Positions 22,581-28,948 of a DNA stretch of 64,000 nt are shown in pieces (position 1 is the stretch's first letter; each line of letters begins with the position of its first letter). The notes below the pieces were generated by a model. It searched no databases and had not been told where the DNA came from. It saw only the letters and a program-made list of their open reading frames with translations. Made by a program: the position numbers and the translations under genes. This DNA is from Myxococcus stipitatus (GTDB lineage Bacteria > Myxococcota > Myxococcia > Myxococcales > Myxococcaceae), in contig NZ_JAKCFI010000016.1 of assembly GCF_021412625.1 (NCBI RefSeq), forward strand, positions 1 to 64,000. Direction: 5' to 3'.

Positions 22581-24890
22581 CTACCGCTGGATGAGGCCGC
22601 CGCTCACGACGAGGCCGTAGTCGGCGTCGATGGCGGCGGTCTCCAGCCTGGCGTCCTGGACGATTTCGTCGCCCAGCACCTCCACCTTCCACAGGCCGGC
22701 CTGGGGATTGGCGAGGAAGACGTTCTCCACCGTGTCCACCTTGTTCGACGTGCCGCCCGCCGTGGAGGTGTTGCCGGCGGACAGGCCGTTGTTGCCGTAG
22801 TAGACGACGCCCCCCGGAGACGTCACGCGCAGGGTGAGGTCGTTGATGCGCGCCTGGGCCGCGCCCACCGTGCCCGCCGGGTCGTTGAAGACGAGCGTGA
22901 CGTTGAGCTCCTTCTCCCCCGCCGCCACGGAGACCGTGTAGCTCTTGATGCCCAGCGGGGTGATGACGTCGGACTCGTCGATGATGCTCGTCACGGCCGC
23001 GCGGTCATACAGCTTCTTGAGGTCCGCGGTGCCCCAGCCCTGGCGCACGCGGGTCAGGTCGCTGTTGGAGCCGACGACGTTCCAGTTGTAGCGGTAGGCC
23101 ATGTTGATCATCAGCGCCTTGGCGGTGGCCATCTGCGGGCGGCTCGCGAAGACGTCCGTCTTGCCGCCGAAGCCCGCCCACACGCCTTCGTGCCACATCT
23201 GGAACAGCACCCCGAAGTGGCCCGCCGTCTGGGGCGTGGCCGCGCTGGTGCCGCTGAAGTTGTAGTACGAGTTGTCGGCGCTGTTGTTGGCCGAGCGGAT
23301 GGCGTCGTAGAAGTACGACAGGTCCGGCTTGATGCGGCCGTCGGCCGCGGGCCCGGTGCTCGCGCCGCCGCCCCACCGGTCGTTGGTCCGGTCGAGGTCG
23401 TCGTTGTGGTAGTAGCCGCCCACGGAGACGATGTTCTTGGCCCACGCCTGGGGACGGGAGCTGGTGGAGCCGGCGTTGCTCTGCGACTGGGTGCTGAGGA
23501 TGGGCGCGCGCAGCAGGTAGTCGTCCACCTCGGCGGAGATGGTGGTGTACGCGGTGGTCAGCGCGCTGCCCACGCTCGACGTCTGGAACACCGCGCGGTA
23601 GCGGCCGTTGGGGTCCGTCAGCTCGCGGTTGATGTCGTAGCGGGACTTGGTGCCGCCGAACTGGGTGGACTGGCTGTAGAGGAAGAAGATGCCCTGGCCG
23701 TAGGGCAGCATGCCGCGCGCGTTGGCGTCGATGCCCTGCGCGAAGTTGATGCTGTAGCAGCTGGTGCCGTGGGCGGAGCCGGCGGTGGAGGTGCTGTGGA
23801 TGACCGGCGGGAAGCCCCACTCCTGGTGGGTGGTGCGCAGCTCCGTGTCGAAGATTTCACCGCGCACGCCCTGGCCCAGCCAGCCCTTGAGGTCCTCCAG
23901 GTACTTGGCGCCACCCAGCTGGCGGACGATGTTCATGTCCACCTCGCCGGGGCCGCCCCAGCGGTCGATGTACTGGACGGCGTTGGAGCGGGCCAGCTTC
24001 GCCAGCTGGTCCTGGGTGAGCGTGGCCTCCACGCGCAGGCCGCCCGGCTCGATGAGCTCCACGGTGCCGCCCAACGCGCGCACCGCGTCCGCGACCTCGC
24101 CCTGCCGCGCCTCGCCGCGCTCACCCACCATGATGGAGTAGCGCTGCGGCGCCAGCGGCGCGGCGTGGCCCTGGATGGCCTCGCGCAGGACGCTCTCCAC
24201 GCGGTACTCGGGATGGTACGCGCCCACCCAGCGCACGAAGGGAAGGTCCGCCACGCGCTTGCGCGTGTCGGCGTCCATCTCCACCAGGAACGTGTGGTCC
24301 GTGAGGAAGCGCAGCACCTTGCCGCCCTCGCGCTCCAGCGCCTCCCGCATCTCCGGGACCGGCGTGGCCGTCAGCTGCACCAGCTGCAGCGTGTTCTGCG
24401 CGTCCGCCATGAGCTGCGCCGACACCAAGGGCTGCGCCTCGCGCAGCGGGTCGAACCGGACGTGCTCGAGCCGCACCTGGTACGTGGTGGCCTGCACCCG
24501 TCCGGCCAGCTCCGTCCCACCGCGGCTGTAGGCGAAGAAATCCTGACGCTCCCCGGCCGCGTCGACTTCCTCCCAGGTATGCAACTGGAGCGTGGAGTGG
24601 GGGACCTGGAGCGTCTTCAGCGCCTGCACGGTGTTGTCCGTGCGGTGGAAGACCAGGCCCGCGCCCGTCACGAGCGCGTAACGCCCCGTCGCCTCGGTGG
24701 CCAGTCCGGCGATGGGCTTCGAAGCGGCGCCCGCCTCCACCACGCGCGCGCTGGCCGTCCGCGCGGCGCCCGGCTTCGGAGCGTCCTTCGACGCCGCGAG
24801 CGCCGGCAATGGGGCGATGAGGCCCCAGCCCAGGGCCATGACAGAGAGTCGACGCCAGCGTCCCGCATACGACGAGAATGACGAGGTCAT
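22581..24890 (-). CDS. Secreted S8 (subtilisin-like) serine protease
   Basis: 769 aa. A signal peptide ends near residue 33 (LPALAAS). A long N-terminal prodomain region, including an I9-like stretch, precedes the catalytic core. Catalytic residues are Asp in GEIFDTELRTTHQEW (~346), His in GSAHGTSCYSINF (~374) and Ser in FSGTSAATPQTAG (~546); the Asp motif is atypical for subtilisins. The C-terminal ~130 residues look like a P/proprotein-convertase beta domain (YTVSVAAGEKELNVTLVF). The ATG has AAGGAG about 7 nt upstream. An extracellular protease, consistent with a predatory bacterium. Confidence 0.9.
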   Translation of the reverse strand: MTSSFSSYAGRWRRLSVMALGWGLIAPLPALAASKDAPKPGAARTASARVVEAGAASKPIAGLATEATGRYALVTGAGLVFHRTDNTVQALKTLQVPHSTLQLHTWEEVDAAGERQDFFAYSRGGTELAGRVQATTYQVRLEHVRFDPLREAQPLVSAQLMADAQNTLQLVQLTATPVPEMREALEREGGKVLRFLTDHTFLVEMDADTRKRVADLPFVRWVGAYHPEYRVESVLREAIQGHAAPLAPQRYSIMVGERGEARQGEVADAVRALGGTVELIEPGGLRVEATLTQDQLAKLARSNAVQYIDRWGGPGEVDMNIVRQLGGAKYLEDLKGWLGQGVRGEIFDTELRTTHQEWGFPPVIHSTSTAGSAHGTSCYSINFAQGIDANARGMLPYGQGIFFLYSQSTQFGGTKSRYDINRELTDPNGRYRAVFQTSSVGSALTTAYTTISAEVDDYLLRAPILSTQSQSNAGSTSSRPQAWAKNIVSVGGYYHNDDLDRTNDRWGGGASTGPAADGRIKPDLSYFYDAIRSANNSADNSYYNFSGTSAATPQTAGHFGVLFQMWHEGVWAGFGGKTDVFASRPQMATAKALMINMAYRYNWNVVGSNSDLTRVRQGWGTADLKKLYDRAAVTSIIDESDVITPLGIKSYTVSVAAGEKELNVTLVFNDPAGTVGAAQARINDLTLRVTSPGGVVYYGNNGLSAGNTSTAGGTSNKVDTVENVFLANPQAGLWKVEVLGDEIVQDARLETAAIDADYGLVVSGGLIQR

Positions 24891-24964
24891 GCGTGTCTCC
24901 TTCTCGGGTTTGCGCTGCTTGCTGCTGTGGTGCTCTCCACCGCCATGTCTTCACTTAGAGCGGT

Positions 24965-25035
24965 GAATTACGACATTCATTGAAAATATGTAAAACAGGA
25001 CAGACTTGATAACGAGTTTGTTCATGTCATGTCAA
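24965..25035. promoter_or_regulatory. AT-rich divergent promoter region between the protease and the kinase/Thg1 operon
   Basis: About 70 bp of clearly lower GC than anything around it lies in the 248-bp gap between two divergent starts. TTGAAAATATG at ~24980 and TTGATAACG at ~25017 look like promoter pieces, and CATGTCATGTC near 25024 is a short repeat. No single -35/-10 pair stands out. Confidence 0.4.
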
Positions 25036-25138
25036 CGCGAACGCATGCCGCGAGGGCGTCTGGACCTGGGGTGGGGTGTGGGGGACTGCTGGCGTGGCGT
25101 CAGCCGGTCCTGGCGCGGTGCGTCCGGAGGTGCTGGCC

Positions 25139-25612
25139 ATGGAACTCGTCGTGTTCATCGGGCTGCAGGGCTCCGGCAAGAGCAGCTTCTTCCGACAGCG
25201 CTTCGCGTCGAGCCACGTGCTGGTGAGCAAGGACCTGTGGCCGAGCACGCGTGACAAGGAGGCCCGGCAGCGGCGGGTCGTCGCCGCGGCGCTCGCGGCG
25301 GGGAGCTCGGTGGTGGTGGACAACACCCACCCGGAGGTGGAGGCGCGCGCGCCGCTCATCGCCCTGGGGCGCGAGCACGGCGCGCGCGTCGTGGGCTACT
25401 TCTTCTCGTCGCGGTTGGAGGAGTGCCTGGCGCGCAACGCGCGGAGGACGGGCCGGGCGCGGGTGCCGGACGTGGCGCTGTACGCCACCCTGAAGCGGCT
25501 GCGGCGCCCGAGCCTGTCCGAGGGGTTCGATTCGCTGTACTTCGTGAGGCTCGCCGCCGAAGGAGACTTCGTCGTCGAGGCGTGGAGGGAGGATGCCGAT
25601 GCTGGACCCTGA
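25139..25612 (+). CDS. P-loop polynucleotide-kinase-like / zeta-toxin-fold kinase
   Basis: 157 aa. Walker A GLQGSGKSS at residues 8-16; SKDLWPS is the typical acceptor/substrate strand; VVVDNTHP (~57) and the lid helix with CLARNARRTGRARVP follow the AAA_33/T4 Pnkp kinase-domain pattern. It likely phosphorylates a nucleotide or RNA/DNA 5' end. ATG 25139 has GGAGGT 8 nt upstream. It overlaps the Thg1-like gene, which suggests that the pair act together on RNA ends (inference). A zeta-toxin role is less likely: no antitoxin is present. Confidence 0.82.
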   Translation: MELVVFIGLQGSGKSSFFRQRFASSHVLVSKDLWPSTRDKEARQRRVVAAALAAGSSVVVDNTHPEVEARAPLIALGREHGARVVGYFFSSRLEECLARNARRTGRARVPDVALYATLKRLRRPSLSEGFDSLYFVRLAAEGDFVVEAWREDADAGP

Positions 25613-26369
25613 CGAGCTGGCGCGCCGCGTGCGGCAGGGAGAGCTGTTCCACGCCTTGCGCCTGTTGCCGGGGGCGTGGGCGGTGCTGCGGGTGGACGGC
25701 CGCGGCTTCTCCCGCTTCACGCAGGAGCGCTTCGAGAAGCCCTTCGACCCCGTCTTCCACCGGCTGATGGTGCGCACGGCCAGCGCGCTGCTGGAGGACT
25801 TCCAGGGCGTGCTCGCGTACACGCAGAGCGACGAAATCTCCGTCCTCTTCCGGCCGGAGTGGCGGCTGTTCGACCGCGAGGTGGAGAAGCTGGTGTCGCT
25901 GTCGGCGGGGCTGGCGAGCGCCACGTTCACGCACGGGGCGGGCGTGCCGGCGATGTTCGACGGCCGCGTGTGGCTGGGCGCGGACGAGCGCGCGGTGCTG
26001 GACTACTTCGCGTGGCGGCAGGCGGACGGCACCCGGTGCGCGTTGCAGGGCTGGTGCTACTGGACGCTGCGCAAGGAGGGGCTCTCCGCGGCGCAGGCCA
26101 CGCGCGAGCTGGACGGACGCTCGACGTCCTTCAAGCACGAGCTGCTCTTCCAGCGCGGCATCAACTTCAACGACCTGCCGGCCTGGCAGCGCCGGGGCGT
26201 GCTCGTCCGCTGGGAGCGCTACACGAAGGAGGGCGTGGACCCACGCGATGGCTCGCGCACGCGGACGACCCGGCGCCGCCTGGGCGTGGACGCGGACCTG
26301 CCCATGAAGGACGACTTCGCCCGGCACCTGCGCGACGTGCTCGCGACCTCACCGGCCCAGGCGCCGTAG
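25599..26369 (+). CDS. Thg1-like protein (tRNA-His guanylyltransferase family, 3'-5' polymerase)
   Basis: 256 aa. Thg1 hallmarks: metal ligand Asp33 in VLRVDGRGFSRFT, second metal pair in YTQSDEISVLF (Asp78, Glu79), HGAGVPAMFDGRVW, and the typical C-terminal block GWCYWTLRKEGLSAAQATREL with ELLFQRGINFNDLP. Bacterial members (TLPs) add nucleotides templated in the 3'-5' direction to repair 5'-truncated tRNAs; myxobacterial homologues are known. ATG 25599 sits 6 nt after AGGGAGG; ATG 25593 touches that motif. It overlaps the kinase gene by 14 nt, so the two are translationally coupled. Confidence 0.93.
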   Translation: MLDPDELARRVRQGELFHALRLLPGAWAVLRVDGRGFSRFTQERFEKPFDPVFHRLMVRTASALLEDFQGVLAYTQSDEISVLFRPEWRLFDREVEKLVSLSAGLASATFTHGAGVPAMFDGRVWLGADERAVLDYFAWRQADGTRCALQGWCYWTLRKEGLSAAQATRELDGRSTSFKHELLFQRGINFNDLPAWQRRGVLVRWERYTKEGVDPRDGSRTRTTRRRLGVDADLPMKDDFARHLRDVLATSPAQAP

Positions 26370-26515
26370 CCGCCAGACGGGCCGCGCCCGGGGACGCTGT
26401 CCGTTCGTGGGACCGCGCTTCGCGCAATCGAACAGGCCCCACCCCCCGGACTTCGTGATTCCGGGGAGTTGAGGGCTCAGCGGGCTGGCATGCGGCTCGC
26501 TTTGGCTCCCCGGGC

Positions 26516-28948
26516 ATGGAGAGCTTCCTTCAGGACGTGAGGTACGCGCTGCGGACGCTGCGCGGCAGCCCGGGCTTCGCCTTCATGGCGGTGCTCGCGC
26601 TGGCGCTGGGCATCGGCGCCACCAGCGCGGTCTTCAGCGTGGTGAACGGCGTGCTCCTCCGGCCGCTGCCCTTCCACGAGCCCGAGCGGCTCGCGCGCGT
26701 GTTCGGGAACCTGCGCGCGTGGGACCTGACGGACATCACCTCGTCGGTGCCCGAGTACCAGGAGTACCGGGAGCAGCTGCGGTCCTTCTCGTCGCTCGCG
26801 GCCTATGTCCAGGGCGACATGACGCTGACGGGCGGCGAGCGCCCCCAGCGCGTCGTCGCGACGCGGGCCACGGCCTCGCTCCTCCAGACGTTGGGCGTGA
26901 CGCCCTCGTTGGGGCGGGGCTTCATGGCGCAGGAGGAGGTTCCGGGCCATGACCGGGTGGTGCTGCTGACGCGCAAGGCGTGGCGCGAGCACTTCGCCGA
27001 GGCCCCGGACGTGCTCGGCCAGACGCTGCGGCTGGATGGTGAGCCCTACACGGTGGTGGGCGTGCTGCCGGAGGAGGGGCTCTATCCGGTGGAGACGGAG
27101 GTCTTCCTGCCCCTGGCGCCCCCGGCCGAGCACTTCTCAGAGAACTACCGGGGCGCGCGCTACCTGTCCGTCCTGGGACGCCTGCGGCCGGGCGTGACCG
27201 AGGAGGGCACGCGCGAGGACCTGGCGCGGGCCTCGCGGGTGCTCGGCGAGGCGCATCCGGCGCACTATCAGGACGCGGGCTGGTCCCTCTCCCTCAAGTC
27301 GCTGGAGGAGCGGACGGTGGGAGGCGTGCGCGGCACGCTGTGGCTGCTGATGGGCGCGGTGGGCTTCGTGCTGCTGGTCGCGTGCTCGAGCGTGGCGAAC
27401 CTGTTGCTGGCGCGGGGCGTGGCGCGGGGGCGCGAGGTGGCCATCCGCGCGGCGCTGGGCGCGGACCGTCGTCGGCTGGTGGCGCAGCTCTTGACGGAGA
27501 GCCTGTTGCTGGCGGTGGCCGGAGGCGCGCTCGGCGTGCTGCTCGCGGCGTGGGGCATGGACGCGCTGCTGGCGCTCGTGGGGGACGCGCTGCCCCGGGC
27601 CGGGGAGGTGCGGCTGGACGCAACGTCGCTCCTGTTCACCGCGGGCGTGTCGCTGTTGACGGGCGTGGTGTTCGGCCTGGTGCCGGCGCTGCGCGTCAGC
27701 CGCGTGGACCTGGACGCGGCGATGCGACAGGGCGCGCGCGGGACGGCGGACGGGGCGACGGGGCGGCTGCGCGGGGGCCTGGTGGTGGGGCAGATCGCGC
27801 TCGCGCTGGTGCTGCTGGTGGGCGCGGGGCTGTTCTCGCGCAGCTTCGTCTCCCTGCGCGAGGTGGACCCGGGCTACTCGCCCGACGGCGTGCTGACGGG
27901 GCAGCTCTCCCTGTCGCGCGCCAGCTACCCGGACGCCGCGCGGCAGGCGGCGTTCCAGGCCGAGCTGCTGACGCGTGTCCAGGCGCTGCCCGGGGTCGCC
28001 TCCGCGGGGCTCGCCAACATCCTCCCCCTGTCGGGTCAGCGCGACAACACCTTCGACATCGAGGGGCGCACGCTGACGACGGCCGACCGGCTGCCGGCAG
28101 TGCAGTATCGCGCGGTGTCCGCCGGCTACCTGCGGACGCTCCAGGTGAAGCTGCGTCAGGGTCGCATGCTCCAGGACTCGGATGACGCCCACGCGCCAGG
28201 GGCGCTGGTCATCAACCGGACGTTCGCGGACCTCTACTGGCCCAAGGGAGACGCGCTGGGCCAGCGGCTGAAGCTGCACGCGCCGGACGCCCGGTGGGCG
28301 ACGGTGGTGGGCATCGTCGAGGACCTGCGGGAGGCGAACCTGAGCGAGCCCGCGCGCCCCACCGCCTACTGGTCGCTGGCGCAGCAGCCGTCCGCCAACC
28401 TGGGGCTGGTGGTGCGCCTGGCGGCGGGCGCGCCGGAGTCGGTGGTCGCCAGCGTCGAGGCGGCGCTGCGCGAGGTGGACGGGGACGTCCCCCTCTACGC
28501 GGTGACGTCGCTGTCCCGGATGGTGGAGGACTCGCTAGGCTCGCGGCGGCTGTCCGCGCTGTTGATGGGGCTGTTCGCCGGGGTGTCGCTGGTGCTGGCG
28601 GCGCTGGGCATCGCCGGCGTCATCGCGTTCATGGTGGTGCAGCGCACGCGCGAGCTGGGCATCCGCATGGCGCTGGGCGCGGCCCGGGGAGACGTGCTGC
28701 GGCTGGTGCTGGGGCAGGGCATGCGGCTGGCCTCGCTGGGGCTGGTCCTGGGCCTGGCGCTGTCGCTGGCGCTGTCGTGGGGCCTGTCCCGGATGCTGGG
28801 GCCGCTGCTGTATGGCGTGACGGCGCTGGACCCGTGGACGTTCGCGGGCGTGGCGGGGCTCCTGGGCGGGGTGGCGCTCCTCGCCACCTGGTTGCCGGCG
28901 CGACGCGCCACGCGCGTGGACCCCATCATCGCGCTGCGCGCGGAGTAG
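26516..28948 (+). CDS. ADOP-type ABC transporter permease (FtsX/MacB family)
   Basis: 810 aa. Begins MESFLQDVRYALRTLRGSPG, the usual start of this permease type, then a membrane helix, a MacB periplasmic core (VLPEEGLYPVETEVFLPLAP), FtsX helices with EVAIRAALGADRRRL, a second periplasmic core (ILPLSGQRDNTFDIEG) and a second FtsX block with ELGIRMALGAARGDVLRLVL ending ARRATRVDPIIALRAE. The two-repeat layout is normal for the family. No ATPase gene is adjacent, so its ATP-binding partner must be elsewhere. Export substrate unknown. Confidence 0.9.
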   Translation: MESFLQDVRYALRTLRGSPGFAFMAVLALALGIGATSAVFSVVNGVLLRPLPFHEPERLARVFGNLRAWDLTDITSSVPEYQEYREQLRSFSSLAAYVQGDMTLTGGERPQRVVATRATASLLQTLGVTPSLGRGFMAQEEVPGHDRVVLLTRKAWREHFAEAPDVLGQTLRLDGEPYTVVGVLPEEGLYPVETEVFLPLAPPAEHFSENYRGARYLSVLGRLRPGVTEEGTREDLARASRVLGEAHPAHYQDAGWSLSLKSLEERTVGGVRGTLWLLMGAVGFVLLVACSSVANLLLARGVARGREVAIRAALGADRRRLVAQLLTESLLLAVAGGALGVLLAAWGMDALLALVGDALPRAGEVRLDATSLLFTAGVSLLTGVVFGLVPALRVSRVDLDAAMRQGARGTADGATGRLRGGLVVGQIALALVLLVGAGLFSRSFVSLREVDPGYSPDGVLTGQLSLSRASYPDAARQAAFQAELLTRVQALPGVASAGLANILPLSGQRDNTFDIEGRTLTTADRLPAVQYRAVSAGYLRTLQVKLRQGRMLQDSDDAHAPGALVINRTFADLYWPKGDALGQRLKLHAPDARWATVVGIVEDLREANLSEPARPTAYWSLAQQPSANLGLVVRLAAGAPESVVASVEAALREVDGDVPLYAVTSLSRMVEDSLGSRRLSALLMGLFAGVSLVLAALGIAGVIAFMVVQRTRELGIRMALGAARGDVLRLVLGQGMRLASLGLVLGLALSLALSWGLSRMLGPLLYGVTALDPWTFAGVAGLLGGVALLATWLPARRATRVDPIIALRAE

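Follow-up and report, generated by a model that had tools for sequence, protein, structure and literature searches.

A polynucleotide kinase and Thg1-like polymerase gene pair in Myxococcus stipitatus, a candidate module for RNA 5'-end repair

A gene neighbourhood joining Thg1 to a polynucleotide kinase was predicted in bacteria by Anantharaman, Iyer and Aravind in 2010, with Myxococcus xanthus in the species list (PMC2904730). There, the 5'-phosphate comes from the kinase, and 5' activation by adenylation is the task of the Thg1-like protein (TLP) itself; the main text also mentions RNA ligase and MACRO-domain neighbours and suggests ligation via a 5' App end, and it contains neither Hen1 nor histidinol nor histidine biosynthesis (PMC2904730). 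According to the main text of a 2019 review, the bacterial and archaeal TLPs tested all prefer 5'-truncated tRNA, that of M. xanthus extends tRNAHis by a single G, and the biological substrates of TLPs are not entirely addressed; the word 'kinase' is absent from that main text (PMC6471195).

Here we describe such a pair in a 64,000-nucleotide stretch of the Myxococcus stipitatus genome (hereafter the window). The pair is a further member of the system predicted in 2010, now better supported, and we think that it probably constitutes a two-enzyme RNA 5'-end repair module, with real room for doubt.

The locus and its two proteins

The kinase gene occupies 25139..25612 on the + strand and encodes 157 aa, from an ATG at 25139 to a stop codon that ends at 25612. 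It is followed on the same strand by the TLP gene (25593..26369), which encodes 258 aa from an ATG at 25593 or 256 aa from an ATG at 25599. Both open reading frames lie at the positions originally claimed for them. The two genes overlap within 25593..25612, by 20 nt if translation of the TLP begins at 25593 and by 14 nt if it begins at 25599, and the 14-nt overlap of the original prediction therefore holds for the second start and fails for the first. We favour 25599 because, in relatives from the genus, the alignment starts with the third or fourth residue of the longer version.

By the gene calls, the next gene 3' of the TLP starts at 26516, 146 nt past its stop, and the gene 5' of the pair is oriented away from it. 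Searches of the surrounding locus (window 24093-27866, L002) returned no match to Hen1 or Pnkp, nor was either found among the called neighbour genes; the Hen1/Pnkp arrangement, in which Hen1 and a three-domain Pnkp share an operon, does not occur here. The window's pair stands alone. A scan for promoters and terminators at the pair found none, which carries little weight in a high-GC myxobacterium, and neither protein had a match in a defence-system library. The genome measures 10.1 Mb, and the closest named TLP matches, within the 80 top-scoring of 525 confirmed hits, come from Myxococcus and Pyxidicoccus at 75-83% identity.

By sequence and by fold, the upstream protein is a PNK-type P-loop kinase. 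It matches Pfam AAA_33 (9e-16), its PHROGs matches are phage polynucleotide kinases, and its NCBIfam matches are the kinase parts of the PNKP and bacterial Pnkp models, with scores far under the cut-offs for full-length PNKP/Pnkp, as expected of one domain. A profile of 16 kinase relatives matched mammalian PNKP (3e-22), the Clostridium thermocellum Pnkp kinase (2e-14) and T4 Pnk (1e-4). The AlphaFold2 model of the kinase has a mean pLDDT of 93.2; in structure comparison it was closest to PNKP (Z 19.3) and C. thermocellum Pnkp (19.0), followed by two fungal kinases (18.2 and 18.0), seryl-tRNA(Sec) kinase (15.8) and T4 Pnk (14.4), and Foldseek also ranked PNKP and C. thermocellum Pnkp first. 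The original description of a polynucleotide-kinase-fold protein with the Walker A motif GLQGSGKSS is thus backed by Pfam, NCBIfam, PHROGs and the nearest structures. The Walker A core GLQGSGKS (residues 8-15) lies at 25160..25183 on the + strand and contains the Walker A lysine, K14. D32 (25232..25234, + strand), the counterpart of the Asp in the 'NRD' stretch of PNKP, is the probable catalytic base, and R99 and R103 are presumably the arginines of the lid. A common fold does not by itself reveal the substrate of a kinase, and phosphorylation of RNA 5'-OH ends is an activity predicted from sequence and model.

The downstream protein is a complete TLP, as originally claimed, with both Thg1 domains over the Pfam cut-offs: PF04446 (Thg1) at 106.3 bits, 1e-30 (cut-off 29.2), and PF14413 (Thg1C) at 56.7 bits, 3e-15 (cut-off 26.3). 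Its nearest solved structure is 5axk, a Thg1-like protein that we take to be from Methanosarcina acetivorans. Counted from ATG 25599, its catalytic residues are Asp33 (25695..25697, + strand) and the QSDE motif (25824..25835, + strand), which correspond to Asp35, Ser79, Asp80 and Glu81 from ATG 25593; the three metal-binding carboxylates, this Asp and the Asp-Glu of SDE, are all present. The window's TLP is accordingly a predicted 3'-5' nucleotide-adding enzyme, judged by its sequence.

Conservation and history of the pair

Kinase and TLP are adjacent as one predicted operon, and this arrangement is conserved. From a genome-wide TLP scan with 525 confirmed matches we used the 80 best, a sample biased toward relatives of the window's TLP, and detected kinases in those loci with a model built from kinases collected in this analysis. 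Among these best 80 of 525 matches, 59 loci carry a kinase directly upstream of the TLP on the same strand, and by record names they span 11 phyla; at two of the 59 (L133 and L137) the kinase is split or partial. Measured to the nearest usable TLP start, the two genes overlap at 40 of the 59 loci, are separated by 0-20 nt at 14 and lie farther apart at five, and the overlap is therefore far from chance within this sample of the best matches. Co-occurrence points the same way. In 244 evenly drawn cyanobacterial genomes, the TLP was found in 10, the kinase in 12 and both in nine, with the two genes adjacent in all nine (Fisher 3e-13, uncorrected for kinship). Adjacency in relatives, the point on which the original prediction had been staked beforehand, is thus kept across 11 phyla among the best 80 of 525 matches, alongside near-perfect co-occurrence in cyanobacteria. 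Neighbour clustering at the best 80 of 525 TLP loci yielded no third recurrent operon gene beyond local synteny, although this clustering is weak, the gene caller having taken shadow ORFs in high-GC loci.

Several arrangements at individual loci are recorded here for their own sake, among them candidate alternative partners for TLPs without a kinase. In three Plantactinospora loci an HD-domain protein (PF01966 in all three) takes the usual position of the kinase, immediately upstream of the TLP (L100 4382-4981; L110 228-827; L115 4269-4976). A weak nucleotidyltransferase and a HepT-like ORF directly precede a TLP without kinase in L077 (4060-4925). Nudix-like ORFs adjoin the pair or the TLP in L145 (4088-4531), L111 (5797-6327) and L134 (5781-6299), with Pfam applied to L145 only. 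On the Embleya plasmid NZ_CP108785.1, kinase and TLP lie side by side at 2187799-2188980, by protein-search coordinates.

A tree of 201 TLPs, from which sequences shorter than 190 residues were excluded along with 28 loci that were duplicates or unwanted, and whose midpoint root serves for drawing only, resolves into two deep clades, A with 64 members (61 viral, three from genomes) and B with 137, among them the window's TLP. Because the contrast between the clades is partly one between viruses and cells, we added ten plasmid TLPs (10 of 19 plasmid records); eight fell in clade A, none of them with a kinase, and two in clade B, one with a kinase. With the plasmids included, a neighbouring kinase occurs at 0 of 71 assessable clade A loci (11 of the clade's 72 members are non-viral) and at 96 of 137 assessable clade B loci, leaving 41 without one; at L119 the contig ends just upstream of the TLP. 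Kinase linkage is confined to clade B, and within it the absence of the kinase is spread widely, requiring 27 changes on the tree. The residues D-S-D-E are retained in 136 of 137 clade B TLPs, the exception being L172, with K-T-D-E. This TLP (L172/L309, in G549), which has lost the first catalytic Asp, has no kinase beside it.

Distances among kinases and among their TLPs are correlated (r 0.896 over 93 pairs, with 0 of 2000 permutations as high), and both kinds of distance also reflect host kinship. In this correlation and in the kinase tree one entry, L165, is represented by a Pnkp kinase domain instead of the small kinase, as that locus has both, with the small kinase upstream of its TLP. 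On two viral contigs the order is swapped, the TLP coming first and the kinase second, with a 4-nt overlap in L175 (5001-6241) and a 4-nt gap in L178 (5001-6246), and the adjacency has therefore outlived a change of gene order. Only 4 of the 19 viral members of clade B have the kinase. When 50,697 phage records were searched at the protein level, 122 proved to contain TLPs, but the window-type kinase had no match in any of them.

The two genes are also found apart. Among 100 relatives, the window's own genome included, 36 had a TLP match and 48 a kinase match (threshold at least 90 bits); 33 had both, 15 the kinase alone and three the TLP alone. Four of the 33 (G012, G016, G017 and G021) retain one or both genes as remnants only, and in G054 both are present, about 1.3 Mb apart. 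Both genes are complete in 22 of 27 genomes of the genus, in which varied losses have struck a single locus (G012, G016, G017, G021 and G024; loci L032-L036): G012 and G021 keep TLP remnants adjoining a complete kinase, a search of the G024 genome found no TLP, a deletion in G016 took out the kinase/TLP junction, and the G017 kinase is without its front part. Kinases left after loss of the TLP have dN/dS values, measured against nearest relatives only, of 0.18 (G021), 0.16 (G024) and 0.27 (G012). Separately, in L150 (598-2292, G313) the front of a TLP continues in frame into unrelated sequence beside an intact kinase.

On the kinase tree, solo kinases are scattered among paired ones, which forces at least 11 changes. 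K14 is kept in 92 of 94 paired kinases (the other two being gaps) and in 26 of 26 solo kinases, and 25 of the 26 solo kinases have all of K14, D32, D61, R99 and R103. Because solo kinases keep the catalytic residues and are placed repeatedly among paired ones, the kinase probably has some use independent of the TLP. Of ten genes scanned next to solo myxobacterial kinases, nine fell into a family and one did not; the nine are mostly metabolic enzymes but include a PF10672 methyltransferase whose target could be RNA, so that an RNA link there is possible. Compensation for loss of the small kinase by Pnkp was considered and rejected, as long Pnkp-like frames show no clear pattern, being present in genomes that have the small kinase and in others that lack it. 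Since each gene also occurs alone, kinase and TLP are not an obligate two-part machine.

Substrates and neighbouring repair genes

As a repair module, the pair would work in three steps. The starting point would be an RNA cut by a nuclease, most probably a tRNA, that bears a 5'-OH and may have lost part of its 5' end; the small kinase would then use ATP to convert the 5'-OH to a 5'-phosphate; and the TLP would activate that phosphate and refill the missing nucleotides in the 3'-5' direction with the opposite strand as template, a step with an in vitro precedent in the preference of TLPs for 5'-truncated tRNA described in the 2019 review (PMC6471195). Action of the kinase on RNA, use of its product by the TLP and damaged tRNA as the cellular target are all inferences. 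Of the original idea that a 5'-kinase primes the TLP in a two-step repair, the pairing is strengthened by conserved adjacency and co-occurrence; the idea itself had been published in 2010, and in that proposal activation of the 5' end belongs to the TLP, not to the kinase. What speaks against a strict machine is that the separate losses are repeated, that the neighbours of solo kinases are mostly metabolic and that repair neighbours occur at few loci.

The pair might alternatively serve the upkeep of tRNAHis, restoring or replacing G-1 on that tRNA only and not mending damaged RNA generally. The best hint here for tRNAHis as a substrate comes from Tenacibaculum, in which the kinase-TLP pair interrupts the histidine operon, with hisD on one side and hisC on the other (L141 3250-6824; L288 6681-10255; L412; L413). 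In L141 the two flanking genes are, by Pfam, a histidinol dehydrogenase and an aminotransferase of class I/II that we regard as HisC. By eye, L288 has further his-like ORFs around the pair, L412 has the same two neighbours as L141, and L413 shows the hisD side, its sequence ending before the hisC side. The single G that the M. xanthus TLP adds to tRNAHis, as the 2019 review describes, fits this reading as well (PMC6471195). The TLP is found in 3 of 97 Tenacibaculum genomes and in 4 of 249 genomes of the family, with an 11-nt kinase/TLP overlap in all four and a truncated TLP in G313, and the location may well be, and probably is, one old insertion. The tRNAHis genes of G124 and G125, which have both TLP and kinase, already encode G-1, seen by eye opposite C73. 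If RNase P leaves a 5'-phosphate, a 5'-kinase would be superfluous for tRNAHis. We therefore hold upkeep of tRNAHis alone to be unlikely. Motif and DNA searches of the window's genome did not find its tRNAHis, one motif being one base off, and we found no paper joining Thg1, histidine biosynthesis and an operon in the open-licence PMC literature.

A distinctly unlikely reading, in our judgement, is that the kinase has another target, perhaps a small molecule or the 5' ends of DNA, and neighbours the TLP through shared ancestry or regulation only. In sequence it is most like mammalian PNKP, whose entry title calls it a DNA repair enzyme, and solo kinases occur without a TLP in many lineages. 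Against a target other than RNA count the tight overlap, the co-occurrence, the swapped gene order and the RNA-repair neighbours described below, and the C. thermocellum Pnkp kinase is almost as good a structural match as PNKP.

In some bacteria the repair module is part of a larger repair set, with Hen1/Pnkp, with Hen1/RlaP or with an RNA ligase. Two cyanobacteria have the gene order Hen1, kinase, TLP, Pnkp (L274 6176-11464 in G466; L275 4130-9499 in G399), with Hen1 scores of 713 and 742 bits (NCBIfam cut-off 340) and Pnkp scores of 1439 and 1456 bits (cut-off 750). Their taxonomic order was covered by 291 genomes, 43 of them TLP-positive; of the 30 loci read from these, 20 have the small kinase and two have the four-gene operon. 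Since the two TLPs are 79% identical, the operon may be one event. Within it Pnkp is a second 5'-kinase and the small kinase looks redundant, which also argues against a strict two-enzyme machine. A second case, unrelated to the cyanobacterial operon, is the mobilizable plasmid NZ_CP083459.1 of Deinococcus taeanensis (L424 5602-10861), on which kinase and TLP overlap by 4 nt and are followed by a small ORF on the opposite strand, a DUF705 ORF, Hen1 and two RlaP genes. The 18-kb stretch around this pair yielded no Pnkp. RlaP also flanks TLPs without a kinase in the cyanobacterial loci L074 (2271-4818) and L314 (806-3017) and follows such a TLP on a Thiodictyon plasmid (L415 2016-3774). An RNA ligase (PF09414) ORF directly precedes kinase and TLP in Limnoglobus roseus (L093 3378-4538), and viral loci L186, L188 and L215 have an RNA-ligase-like match 2-3 kb from the TLP. 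In all, Hen1, Pnkp, RlaP or an RNA ligase lies near the TLP at few of 285 loci, many of them short and many duplicate. A separate observation is a partial RNA-ligase-like match of 55 bits just after the pair in a further cyanobacterium (L299 2373-2894, G644). RNA repair systems were reportedly treated broadly by Burroughs and Aravind in 2016, and some of the repair links given here may be covered there. We found no paper that has Hen1 and Thg1 together in the open-licence PMC literature, and the Hen1-kinase-TLP-Pnkp operon and the Deinococcus set may be the new parts.

A TLP needs a template strand, and the anticodon loop has none. In the window's genome the kinase search gave no Pnkp-like second match; in 13 other genomes of the genus such a match lies within a long open frame, which we judge to be Pnkp. 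RNA sealing, in which 5'-AppRNA made by the TLP, or refilled ends, would go to an RNA ligase such as Pnkp or Rnl, as in the repair of tRNAs that lost nucleotides to a nuclease, is very doubtful as the main role: the four-gene operon in two genomes, Hen1 and two RlaP genes near the Deinococcus pair, the ligase adjoining the pair in L093, RlaP adjoining the TLP in L074, L314 and L415 and the ligation via 5' App suggested in 2010 (PMC2904730) favour it, but loci with an adjoining ligase are few, the Deinococcus stretch and the kinase search of the window's genome lack Pnkp, and the anticodon loop offers no template.

A broader scheme, suggested by the cyanobacterial operon and the Deinococcus set and possible though we advance it tentatively, would keep the repair module and place sealing after it. 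Kinase and TLP would restore losses at the 5' end and RlaP those at the 3' end, and Hen1 with a ligase, for example Pnkp, would seal and protect; the window's pair would be a free-standing refill module. If the refill reading is true, bacteria can mend RNA breaks from which nucleotides were lost. The conserved kinase partner and the context of repair genes suggest that the TLP pathway starts from RNA with 5'-OH ends, and the role of bacterial TLPs in the cell becomes testable in Myxococcus.

Comparison with known systems

The repair reading stands closest to the 2010 prediction of Thg1 with a polynucleotide kinase, which has the same two adjacent families and the same logic (PMC2904730). Added here are the restriction to one TLP clade, the swapped order, the co-occurrence counts and the repeated separate losses. 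With the characterised TLPs of M. xanthus, B. thuringiensis and M. acetivorans the window's TLP shares the catalytic residues and the domain pair; among solved structures, that of the B. thuringiensis TLP (4kgk) ranks first for a clade A member, whereas the window's TLP belongs to clade B.

T4 Pnkp and the fungal kinases 9d8a and 9drz, which act in tRNA repair, share the P-loop kinase fold with the window's kinase (Z 14 and 18, respectively). Unlike T4 Pnkp, to which it is a weak sequence match, the window's kinase has no phosphatase domain. Hen1/Pnkp repair, finally, employs a 5'-kinase of related fold, and in two cyanobacteria a pair of the window's type lies inside such an operon; the window's own pair differs from that system in having no Hen1, phosphatase or ligase adjoining it and in its single-domain kinase.
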